Source: Sphingobacteriales bacterium (GTDB lineage: Bacteria > Bacteroidota > Bacteroidia > Chitinophagales > JADIYW01). From it: DNA of 62,427 nucleotides. Made by a program: the position numbers and the translations under genes. How positions within the stretch are numbered: the first letter of the stretch is position 1; every line of letters starts with the position of its first letter. Location of the stretch: the NCBI GenBank assembly GCA_947460245.1, contig CANHGL010000011.1:1-62427 (forward strand), given 5' to 3'. Shown in pieces: positions 48,142 to 52,248 of the stretch. The notes under the pieces were generated by a model. That model did no database searches. It was not told the DNA's origin and worked only from the letters and a program-made list of their open reading frames with translations.

Positions 48142-49047
48142 ATGAATGACTATCATTTAAATCACTTAAAAGAACTCGAAGCAGAGTCAATTTATATATT
48201 AAGAGAAGTGGCAGCACAGTTTGAAAATCCATGTTTACTTTTCTCTGGCGGCAAAGACTCCATTACCGTTCTCTACCTCGCATTAAAGGCATTTTATCCG
48301 GCGAATGTGCCATTTACCTTACTGCATGTAGATACCGGACATAATTTTCGGGAAGCATTGGATTACAGAGATGAACTTGTAAAAAAATTTGGATTACGCT
48401 TAATGATAGCCTCTGTTCAGGATGCCATTGATAAAGGATTAGTGCGAGAGGAGAGAGGATTTAATGCAAGCAGAAATGCATTGCAAACAGTACCATTATT
48501 AGAGGCTATTGAAAAAAATAAATTTGATTGCGCGATTGGTGGAGCACGAAGAGATGAAGAGAAGGCACGCGCCAAAGAGCGTTTTTTCTCTCATAGAGAT
48601 GAATTTGGACAATGGGATCCTAAGAATCAACGTCCTGAACTCTGGAATATCTTTAACGGAAGAAAAAATATAGGCGAACACTTCCGCGTTTTTCCAATTA
48701 GCAACTGGACAGAGATGGATGTTTGGCAATACATCTACCAGGAAAATATTCCTATGCCAAACCTTTACTTCTCACATAAAAGAAACGTATTTCTTCGGGA
48801 TGGAGTATGGTATGCCGATTCTGAGTTTATGCAAAAGAAACCGGATGAAGTAGTAGAAGAAAGAGTAGTACGCTTCAGAACAGTAGGAGATATCACCTGC
48901 ACGGGCGCTGTCTTTTCTGAAGCCTCCACATTGGAAGATATTATACAAGAAGTAGCAGCGTCGAGAACAACAGAGAGAGGAACACGTGCCGATGATAAAC
49001 GCAGCGAAGCGGCGATGGAGGACAGAAAAAAAGCCGGATATTTTTAG
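48142..49047 (+). CDS. cysD: Sulfate adenylyltransferase subunit 2
   Basis: 301 residues. The PP-loop SGGKDSITVLYLALKAF near residue 36 is intact. GARRDEEKARAKERFFSHRDEFGQWDPKNQ, here cited by its start GARRDEEKAR, and the MDVWQYIYQENIPMP and DDKRSEAAMEDRKKAGYF ends are standard. It activates sulfate to APS together with CysN. Its stop lies 2 bp from the left inverted repeat of the GxxExxY cassette, which separates it from cysN. Confidence 0.96.
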   Translation: MNDYHLNHLKELEAESIYILREVAAQFENPCLLFSGGKDSITVLYLALKAFYPANVPFTLLHVDTGHNFREALDYRDELVKKFGLRLMIASVQDAIDKGLVREERGFNASRNALQTVPLLEAIEKNKFDCAIGGARRDEEKARAKERFFSHRDEFGQWDPKNQRPELWNIFNGRKNIGEHFRVFPISNWTEMDVWQYIYQENIPMPNLYFSHKRNVFLRDGVWYADSEFMQKKPDEVVEERVVRFRTVGDITCTGAVFSEASTLEDIIQEVAASRTTERGTRADDKRSEAAMEDRKKAGYF

Positions 49048-49049
49048 TC

Positions 49050-49070
49050 TATAACCACATAGATATATAG
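49050..49070 (+). repeat. Left terminal inverted repeat of the GxxExxY cassette
   Basis: TATAACCACATAGA followed by TATATAG. It matches the reverse complement of 49499-49519 at 19 of 21 positions, including a perfect 14-base block. It begins 2 bp after the cysD stop. Confidence 0.9.
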
Positions 49071-49074
49071 AAAA

Positions 49075-49497
49075 TTGGACGCAATATTAACTCAAAAATA
49101 TTTAGATGAACTTACTTATGAAGTAATTGGGGCTGCCATTGAAGTGCACAAAACTATGGGAAGAGGTTTGCTGGAAAGTGTTTACCAGGAATGCATGAAA
49201 GAAGAGTTAACACATAGAAAAATAAATTTTTCATCAGAGTTTAAGATACCGGTCAGCTATAAAACAAAACTACTAAATATTGACTTCAGATGTGATTTAT
49301 TTATAGAGAATTGTTTGGTGATAGAACTTAAAACTGTTACTGAACTAAATTCCATTTTCGAAGCGCAGCTTATGAACTATATGAATCTATTGAAAGCCCC
49401 GAAGGGAATTCTGATAAACTTTAATTGCTATAACCTTTTTAAAGAAGGACAAAAGACATTTGTGAATGAATATTTTAAACAACTACAGAAGAATTAA
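49075..49497 (+). CDS. GxxExxY protein (PD-(D/E)XK nuclease-like)
   Basis: 140 residues from a TTG start; the frame must begin here because the conserved N-terminal helix (LTYEVIGAAIEVHKTMGRGL) lies before any ATG. The name motif GxxExxY is visible as GLLESVYQ. A nuclease-like core has Asp in DFRCDLFIE and ExK in VIELKTV, as in the PDDEXK_3 family. The gene starts 4 bp after the left inverted repeat and ends 1 bp before the right one. Its position inside the cysD-cysN operon has no metabolic logic, which supports insertion. The biological role of the family is not established. Confidence 0.85.
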   Translation: MDAILTQKYLDELTYEVIGAAIEVHKTMGRGLLESVYQECMKEELTHRKINFSSEFKIPVSYKTKLLNIDFRCDLFIENCLVIELKTVTELNSIFEAQLMNYMNLLKAPKGILINFNCYNLFKEGQKTFVNEYFKQLQKN

Positions 49498-49498
49498 C

Positions 49499-49519
49499 CT
49501 ATAATTCTATGTGGTTATA
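49499..49519 (-). repeat. Right terminal inverted repeat of the GxxExxY cassette
   Basis: CTATAATTCTATGTGGTTATA; reverse complement of the left repeat with two differences. Three tandem AATGACT-like units (49523-49540) lie between it and the cysN start region. Confidence 0.9.
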
Positions 49520-49530
49520 ACCAATGACTA

Positions 49531-50811
49531 ATGACTAATGACCAATTCGACTCGAGAGCCTATTTAGACATGGAGTTGCTACGCTTCTCCACAGCGGGAA
49601 GTGTAGACGATGGAAAGTCTACCCTAATAGGAAGATTGCTGTATGACAGTAAATCTATTTTCGAGGATCAGTATGATGCTATAGAAGCTGCCAGTCAGAA
49701 AAGAGGAGAAGAGTATGTAAATCTTGCCTTACTCACGGATGGATTACGCGCAGAACGCGAACAAGGAATTACGATAGATGTGGCTTACCGCTATTTTTCT
49801 ACCCCAAAAAGAAAATTTATTATTGGTGACACACCAGGGCATATTCAATATACCCGCAATATGGTAACAGGAGCATCGACGGCTAATCTGTCTATTATCT
49901 TAGTGGATGCAAGAAAGGGGATTATCGAACAAACCTATCGCCACTCTTATATTGCATCGCTGTTACAAATACCACATATTATTGTCTGTGTAAATAAAAT
50001 GGACCTCGTTAACTGGGATGAAAAAACATTTACCCAAATTGTAAACGATTATAAAGCATTCGCCTCCAAACTCGATGTTAAGGATGTACACTTCATTCCT
50101 ATCTCCGCACTCGAAGGTGATAATGTAGTGAAGAGATCAGAACATATGGATTGGTATGATGGTCCAACTTTATTATACCTTTTGGAAAACATTCATATTG
50201 GCTCTGATCTCAACCATATAGATGCCCGCTTTCCTGTACAATATGTAATCCGTCCGATGAAAAATGAATACCACGACTATCGTGGTTATGCCGGAAGAAT
50301 TGCTGGAGGCGTTTTCAGAGTTGGTGATAAAATAAAGGCATTACCCTCAGGATTCACTTCCAAAATAAAATCCATCAGCACTATGGATGGCGATTTACAG
50401 GAGGCATTTGCTCCTCAGAGTGTAACTATACTGCTCGAGGATGAGATTGACATTTCCCGTGGTGATATGATAGTGCGCGAGAATAATGTTCCCCAGGTAG
50501 AGCAGGAATTTGATGTGATGCTGTGCTGGATGAACGAGAAGAAAATGCAAACCAAAGGAAAGTATATCCTTCGACACACCACGAAAGAATCCAAATGCCT
50601 CATTAAAGAAATTAAATACAAGTTAGACATCAATAACCTGCAACGTGTAGAAAATTGTACAGAACTAGAACTCAATGATATTGCGCGCGTTTCCATACGC
50701 ACTACTGCCCCTCTATTCTTTGATTCTTATAGAAAGAATAGAATTACCGGTAGCCTTATTCTTGTAGATGAAACTACCAATGAAACCGTGGCTGCAGGTA
50801 TGATTGTATAG
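49531..50811 (+). CDS. cysN: Sulfate adenylyltransferase subunit 1 (GTPase)
   Basis: 426 residues of the translation-factor GTPase family. The P-loop reads STAGSVDDGKSTLIGRLLYD, switch II DTPGHIQYTRNM, and the base-binding NKMD and SALEGDN motifs are present. The C-terminal EF-Tu-like barrels follow. There is no fused CysC domain; the kinase is a separate gene here. GTP hydrolysis drives APS synthesis with CysD. It lies 11 bp after the GxxExxY cassette, so its expression must pass through the cassette. Confidence 0.95.
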   Translation: MTNDQFDSRAYLDMELLRFSTAGSVDDGKSTLIGRLLYDSKSIFEDQYDAIEAASQKRGEEYVNLALLTDGLRAEREQGITIDVAYRYFSTPKRKFIIGDTPGHIQYTRNMVTGASTANLSIILVDARKGIIEQTYRHSYIASLLQIPHIIVCVNKMDLVNWDEKTFTQIVNDYKAFASKLDVKDVHFIPISALEGDNVVKRSEHMDWYDGPTLLYLLENIHIGSDLNHIDARFPVQYVIRPMKNEYHDYRGYAGRIAGGVFRVGDKIKALPSGFTSKIKSISTMDGDLQEAFAPQSVTILLEDEIDISRGDMIVRENNVPQVEQEFDVMLCWMNEKKMQTKGKYILRHTTKESKCLIKEIKYKLDINNLQRVENCTELELNDIARVSIRTTAPLFFDSYRKNRITGSLILVDETTNETVAAGMIV

Positions 50812-52190: not shown

Positions 52191-52248
52191 CTAAACCACT
52201 TAGATACATCGAAAAGAATGGTGAAAAACTATATTTCTATGTGGTTAG
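52191..52248. repeat. Solo inverted-repeat element related to the GxxExxY cassette ends
   Basis: Left arm CTAAACCACTTAGATACATC and right arm CTATATTTCTATGTGGTTAG (52229-52248) form an imperfect hairpin with an 18-nt centre. Both arms resemble the ends of the cassette at 49050-49519. There is no gene inside. It begins 2 bp after the purK stop and ends 13 bp before purE, and would fold in the purKE mRNA. Confidence 0.75.

Follow-up and report, generated by a model that had tools for sequence, protein, structure and literature searches.

TnpA-REP/RAYT proteins are thought to act on REP sequences and REPINs (PMC3116915, PMC8266576), and the intervening sequence (IVS) of Coxiella 23S rRNA is a 428-nt insert with one open reading frame (ORF) and complementary ends (PMC4990558). 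These are among the closest described systems to the locus of this study. GxxExxY is named in only two papers of the literature searched, in one as a domain beside a reverse-transcriptase gene and in the other in the context of an algal virus genome. No description of an association of repeats with GxxExxY or with S23p was found in the literature searched, which largely excludes subscription journals and preprints.

The window, which is the whole stretch of 62,427 nucleotides analyzed, contained a GxxExxY gene packaged in a 470-bp cassette between cysD and cysN (Table 1). The first-pass annotation had placed one gene exactly between 21-bp inverted repeats and between the two subunits of ATP sulfurylase, and the coordinates confirmed both. 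The two arms were 21 nt long, matched at 19 of 21 positions (90% complementary) and were 428 nt apart, while the ORF started 4 bp past the left arm and ended 1 bp ahead of the right arm. None of 2000 dinucleotide shuffles reached the cassette's flank-pair score of 32 (their maximum was 28), and of 3097 frames slid along the window only the cassette itself did. Thus, the arrangement is far beyond chance, and a coincidental inverted repeat was ruled out. The name cysD rests on what is established for this family.

Table 1. Features of the cassette, its host genes and a nearby gene-less element in the window.
Feature	Position	Strand	Basis
cysD, host gene upstream of the cassette (sulfate adenylyltransferase subunit 2)	48142..49047	+	ORF list, tblastn to relatives
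Left arm TATAACCACATAGATATATAG, outer ACC and CATAG-type word	49050..49070	+	Repeat search, word family
GxxExxY gene (TIGR04256/PF13366), 140 aa, TTG start	49075..49497	+	ORF list, profiles
Right arm CTATAATTCTATGTGGTTATA	49499..49519	-	Repeat search
Heptamer-type words ACCAATGACTAATGACTAATGACC, overlapping the cysN start	49520..49543	+	Match to right arm of the G007 cassette
cysN, host gene downstream of the cassette (sulfate adenylyltransferase subunit 1)	49531..50811	+	ORF list
Gene-less mini-element with ends TAAACCACTTAGATACAT...ATATTTCTATGTGGTTA, between purK and purE	52192..52247	.	

The word in the cassette arms was ACCACATAGnnACATAG. The 14-mer TATAACCACATAGA occurred only in the two cassette arms in the 2.2-Mb genome. 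Exact matches to the shorter core AACCACATAGA numbered four in this genome, each of them part of an inverted pair. They were found in the two cassette arms, in the 56-bp mini-element between purK and purE, which contained no gene and had CATAG ends as in the cassette, and on contig C21 in an element of 166 bp that likewise lacked a gene. This genome has a second GxxExxY gene (C17, L004), whose own arms were of the GGATT type.

The ORF scored 131.8 bits with TIGR04256 (GxxExxY, cut-off 35 bits) and 129.9 bits with PF13366 (PDDEXK_3, cut-off 22 bits), both above cut-off, which bears out its earlier identification as GxxExxY. PDDEXK_3/GxxExxY was the only family matched in the cassette. The residues G31xxE34xxY37, D74, E84-x-K86 and Y102 were conserved. 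With G31, E34, Y37, K86 and Y102 invariant and D74 and E84 present in at least 90% of 53 sequences, the catalytic activity is probably intact. The AlphaFold2 model was confident (pLDDT 94.8), and its best structural match was SSO0001 (4IC1_G; Z 9.1, rmsd 4.0, 100 residues; Foldseek E 0.0026–0.0096), a Cas4 nuclease. Further structural matches were RecB-family nucleases, Hjc resolvases, restriction enzymes and, weakly, I-Bth0305I. No sequence relative of GxxExxY with a solved structure was found in the PDB. The predicted fold is Cas4/RecB-like PD-(D/E)XK.

The packaging was then scored by how well the 5' and 3' flanks of a gene match as inverted repeats, in a sample of 149 GxxExxY loci at 78 distinct sites, with 374 other ORFs from the same DNA as controls. 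The median score was 35 for 145 GxxExxY genes and 19 for the controls, and 64% of the GxxExxY genes had a score of at least 30 vs. 2.4% of the control ORFs. Paired repeats thus do bracket GxxExxY genes elsewhere, contrary to the first outcome by which the first-pass annotation would have been refuted, and a site-specific accident of one genome was ruled out. The arms consisted of short words in tandem behind an outer ACC, GCC or TTGTCTGAA. Their words included ACCACATAGAAACATAG, ACCATATAAGTTATATAAGTTCATTTAAG, ACCACAAAAGGCACAAAAG, ACCGCAAAGTGCGCTAAG, TTGTCTGAATCACGGATT and GCCACGAATTCACGAATT as well as ACCGCTGATGGGCGCTGAT in a Verrucomicrobiales MAG, and those of other clades were ACCATATAAG..., ACCACAAAAG... 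and TTGTCTGAAT...GATT. The GxxExxY genes were mostly in sense orientation relative to their neighbors (32:5 upstream and 30:11 downstream), and their distribution among the relatives was patchy (40 of 61 genomes). Two loci with nearly identical flanks (L119 and L135) had different numbers of tandem word blocks upstream of the GxxExxY gene, so the word array can also change by tandem duplication. Two further loci, L088 and L142, were Flavobacterium-like and come from a MAG titled Rhizobium sp. Q54 (CALQAH02), which is probably mis-binned or misnamed.

The words were similar where the proteins were similar (Mantel test, Spearman 0.416, 51 independent sites, p<0.0005), and the maximum of 2000 permutations was 0.14. 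Moreover, in 50 of 58 decided comparisons within genomes (50:8), which are not fully independent, the word resembled that of the closest foreign protein more than it resembled the word of the same-genome paralogue. These comparisons ruled out that the word is set by the host genome. The word clearly goes with the protein rather than with the genome, and this co-divergence is the strongest sign that the word is read by the GxxExxY protein or by something linked to this protein. Because the repeats change their spelling with the protein, the GxxExxY gene and the repeats appear to form a single unnamed system of repeat plus nuclease.

Similar to the genome of the window, other genomes also contained gene-less copies of the repeats. 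The CATAG word pattern ACCACATAGN1-4ACATAG was counted in 61 relatives, with the reversed pattern as control. Most of its occurrences were in genomes whose GxxExxY gene belongs to the window's clade (26, 13, 10, 5, and 4 copies), vs. 0–2 for the control. The exception was genome G039, in which 11 copies, including several 55-bp palindromic pairs, occurred without a cognate gene. Two of the G039 palindromes (L277 and L279) were at contig ends, suggesting that they are part of a larger multi-copy repeat. Many CATAG copies were inverted pairs of 34–60 or 150–177 bp without a gene. In Flavobacterium, the related CATAGNNACATAG had up to about 116 copies per genome vs. 0–3 for the control, and these copies were mostly paired, about 112–130 bp apart. 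The layout of the Flavobacterium element was TTTAAACACATAGAAACATAG ... a palindrome such as AGAAACTAGTTTCT ... ACACATAGCTATGTGT ... GTGAAACGCC ... CTATGTTTCTATGTGTTTAAA. All five pairs within the internal palindrome had changes on both sides and none had a change on one side only; thus, the hairpin covaries and is preserved despite sequence changes.

When the flanks of the Flavobacterium cassettes L100, L101, and L102 were aligned with the 143-bp element consensus, the upstream flanks covered columns 0 to about 75–83, one half, and the downstream flanks the rest, which places the GxxExxY gene at the center of the element. The Flavobacterium cassette is therefore the gene-less element opened at its center. 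The joined flanks of the elements of one Flavobacterium genome (G077) were also traced in five further genomes of Flavobacterium. Some orthologous sites were empty (L353, L352, L359, L355, L356, L358, and L360) and others filled (L363, L364, L367, and L368), and some of the "empty" sites carried words of another type (L352 and L357). At these sites, where the intergenic DNA has diverged, neither base-exact junctions nor a target duplication was found.

A gene at the element center with arms on either side would also fit homing, in which the gene-less palindromes would be targets, GxxExxY would cut their center as a PD-(D/E)XK homing endonuclease and the cassette would be copied in by arm-guided repair. 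The weak structural match to I-Bth0305I and the word that follows the protein are in line with such homing. However, dozens of gene-less elements accompany usually one cognate gene per genome, so that the targets are not being converted, and the spread of the gene-less elements is left unexplained. We therefore regard homing as quite unlikely.

The cysD-cysN site was compared in seven genomes of the same genus, whose CysN was 87–91% identical. In six of the seven, the cysD-cysN gap was roughly 65–150 bp and contained no GxxExxY gene, and it was 17–69 bp in six more distant relatives. Thus, most relatives have an empty site, and the second outcome by which the first-pass annotation would have been refuted was not seen either. 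The seventh genome (G007, L066) had a 481-bp gap with a four-helix-bundle gene (PF05635, 105 bits), which was bracketed by inverted heptamer arrays GTCAATAGTCATTGGTCAATAGTATTT. The heptamer array that follows the right arm in the window matched the right arm of this cassette, and PF05635 had no match in the window's own genome. Judged by this match, the array in the window is probably a remnant of the four-helix-bundle cassette type. A four-helix-bundle cassette or its remnant likely came first, and the GxxExxY cassette then would have entered into or beside it. On this likely history, unrelated inserts framed by repeats have used the gap repeatedly. No target duplication was evident at cysD-cysN or in the empty-site alignments, whose intergenic DNA has diverged too far for junctions to be placed to the base. 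Separately, orthologous intergenic sites in relatives (L357, L352, L071, L068, and L064) held differing repeat types (GATT words, GCGCAAAG words, GTCATTCCGAG repeats and CTCTCC/GGAGAG repeats), which looks as though a small number of spacers had served as landing sites more than once.

The occupation of the same gap by an S23p/four-helix-bundle cassette with its own repeats, together with a size and layout like those of the Coxiella IVS (PMC4990558), brings an RNA-level explanation into consideration. The arms would pair in the transcript, RNase III would excise the insert and the insert would spread via an RNA or reverse-transcription step. The arm mismatches, however, showed no excess of G-U over A-C (85 vs. 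76) and thus no signal of RNA-stem selection, no Rfam RNA matched at the gathering threshold, and GxxExxY has a DNA-nuclease fold and is not S23p. The lack of a G-U excess disfavors this explanation and the site shared with the S23p cassette keeps it alive; we consider it very improbable.

The four-helix-bundle (S23p/IVP, PF05635) genes themselves (L192–L221 and L066) also had inverted flanks, with a score of at least 30 in 41% vs. 2.4% of the controls, and their arms were heptamers (period-7 autocorrelation 0.69). For this family, the relation between word and protein was not significant at 22 loci (p = 0.17), and the arms were clearly heptameric. Arms of four-helix-bundle cassettes may account for heptamer repeats that are dispersed in Bacteroidota, and perhaps also for the ones reported in Beggiatoaceae and cyanobacteria.

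The inheritance of GxxExxY argued against fast transposition. In Flavobacterium, two old operon sites accounted for 28 and 22 loci, which were vertically inherited and under purifying selection (median dN/dS 0.055 and 0.123, respectively). By reading of translations, the neighbor at one site was a SufS-like gene, and the neighbors at the other were genes of an ABC transporter of the iron/cobalamin type. The surroundings of L113 and L098 have the appearance of an operon with sufS and of an operon for such a transporter; with cysD-cysN, all three sites read were operons and two of them are in sulfur metabolism. The interiors of the elements within one genome were about 80% and at most 92% identical, and no near-identical copies were found at this limit. 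In addition, GxxExxY was rare to nearly absent on plasmids and phages, and almost no plasmid or phage vehicles were found. These results modify the earlier proposal of a minimal selfish cassette whose nuclease-fold protein may drive its own spread. The idea of a cassette with a nuclease-fold protein as its sole gene product holds, and the co-divergence of word and protein supports a functional link. The vertical old sites under purifying selection in Flavobacterium, the lack of near-identical copies and the rarity on plasmids and phages give no sign of self-driven spread. Because its multi-copy form is gene-less, the cassette is better described as belonging to a REPIN/RAYT-like pair of repeat family and nuclease.

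Three further ideas were not borne out. Within Flavobacterium, a dependence of element number on the cognate gene was unsupported, as genomes without a clade member still had 50–100 copies. Loss of the gene was not associated with older, more diverged elements (no difference, small samples). Finally, recent homing that would make cassettes more alike than their flanks was rejected, as the identity profiles fit purifying selection and had no sharp homing boundary.

The strong purifying selection (dN/dS 0.05–0.12), the retention at the same operon sites, the scarcity on plasmids and the sense orientation in operons would also fit a host-serving role, in which the repeats would be regulatory or mRNA-processing sites, GxxExxY would have a cellular job in replication/repair or RNA processing at these sites, and mobility would be incidental via repeat recombination. 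We consider such a role unlikely, given the patchy distribution, the many different sites of the 149 loci and the orthologous sites that are both empty and occupied. The dN/dS values at the vertical sites nevertheless count against the explanation that we prefer, as do the element numbers in Flavobacterium that do not follow the cognate gene, the equal divergence of elements in genomes without it, the lack of near-identical copies, of base-exact junctions and of a target duplication, and the rarity on plasmids and phages.

The preferred explanation is that the system is most likely REPIN/RAYT-like and built on a Cas4/RecB-like PD-(D/E)XK nuclease. More specifically, we lean modestly toward a palindromic repeat family of which the cassette is the form with a gene, and whose cognate words are read by GxxExxY, which rarely copies or moves the element in cis and in trans. 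Recognition of the cognate words by the nuclease would probably take place on hairpins that extrude from single-stranded DNA, and the nuclease would cleave or process the words or hairpins. On rare occasions, this processing would copy or move the element, the cassette in cis and the gene-less elements in trans, a relation like the one proposed for TnpA-REP/RAYT and REP/REPINs (PMC3116915, PMC8266576). The cassette would arrive between the genes of an operon and in their sense orientation, would be harmless there and could use host transcription, and the gene would afterwards persist vertically over long periods. The packaging and the link between word and protein are shown, as are the gene-less derivatives with conserved ends and a maintained hairpin, the polymorphic sites and, in Flavobacterium, the central position of the gene; movement of the element by the nuclease is our inference. 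A more far-reaching version, which we regard as possible but rather doubtful, is that GxxExxY proteins are the recombinases of a separate class of mobile elements, which move themselves and gene-less hairpin elements by a Cas4-like PD-(D/E)XK nuclease alone. The many lineage-specific tandem-word repeats of Bacteroidota and other phyla (CATAG, TAAG, AAAG, and GATT types) would then be their non-autonomous copies, and parallel elements with heptamer arms would belong to the S23p/IVS proteins.

GxxExxY is a common protein family without an assigned job, for which the co-diverging DNA repeat supplies a testable substrate. The tie between GxxExxY and the repeats may also explain a large share of the unexplained intergenic repeats in Bacteroidota. 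If the nuclease does move the elements, they would be mobile elements driven by a lone PD-(D/E)XK enzyme. Moreover, the site and layout that the cassette has in common with S23p cassettes offer a new angle on the spread of 23S rRNA intervening sequences.

GxxExxY is predicted to share the fold and active-site layout of Cas4/RecB-family nucleases (SSO0001, PDB 4IC1). Different from them, it is smaller, stands alone within its own repeats and has no adjoining cas genes at cysD-cysN. Similar to insertion sequences with MITEs, the gene-bearing and gene-less forms share terminal inverted repeats. The GxxExxY cassette, however, with PDDEXK_3 as its single ORF, contains no DDE, HUH, tyrosine or serine recombinase, and its elements had neither a visible target duplication nor recent bursts. 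Like the 23S rRNA IVS with S23p of Coxiella and Leptospira (PMC4990558), the cassette is about 0.45 kb long, has a single small ORF and complementary ends and occurs sporadically, and the S23p-type cassette of G007 occupies the very cysD-cysN gap of GxxExxY. In contrast to the IVS, it lies outside rRNA, carries a nuclease-fold gene (PF13366) and has arms that are not heptamer arrays. Compared with REPIN/RAYT ("REPtron") of gammaproteobacteria and others (PMC3116915, PMC8266576), GxxExxY is a Cas4/RecB-like PD-(D/E)XK protein, whereas RAYT is an HUH Y1 transposase (IS200-like); because the enzyme class differs, the GxxExxY system is not a REPtron by definition. Its words are tandem 8–10-nt units of the CATAG, TAAG, AAAG, and GATT types, its elements are 130–170 bp long and, in the arms listed, no REP GTAG/CTAC foot was found beside the palindrome. 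Similar to REPIN/RAYT, however, the GxxExxY system combines a long-lived nuclease gene with inverted lineage-specific repeat copies, many gene-less palindromic hairpin doublets in intergenic DNA, a link between repeat and protein, and slow spread.
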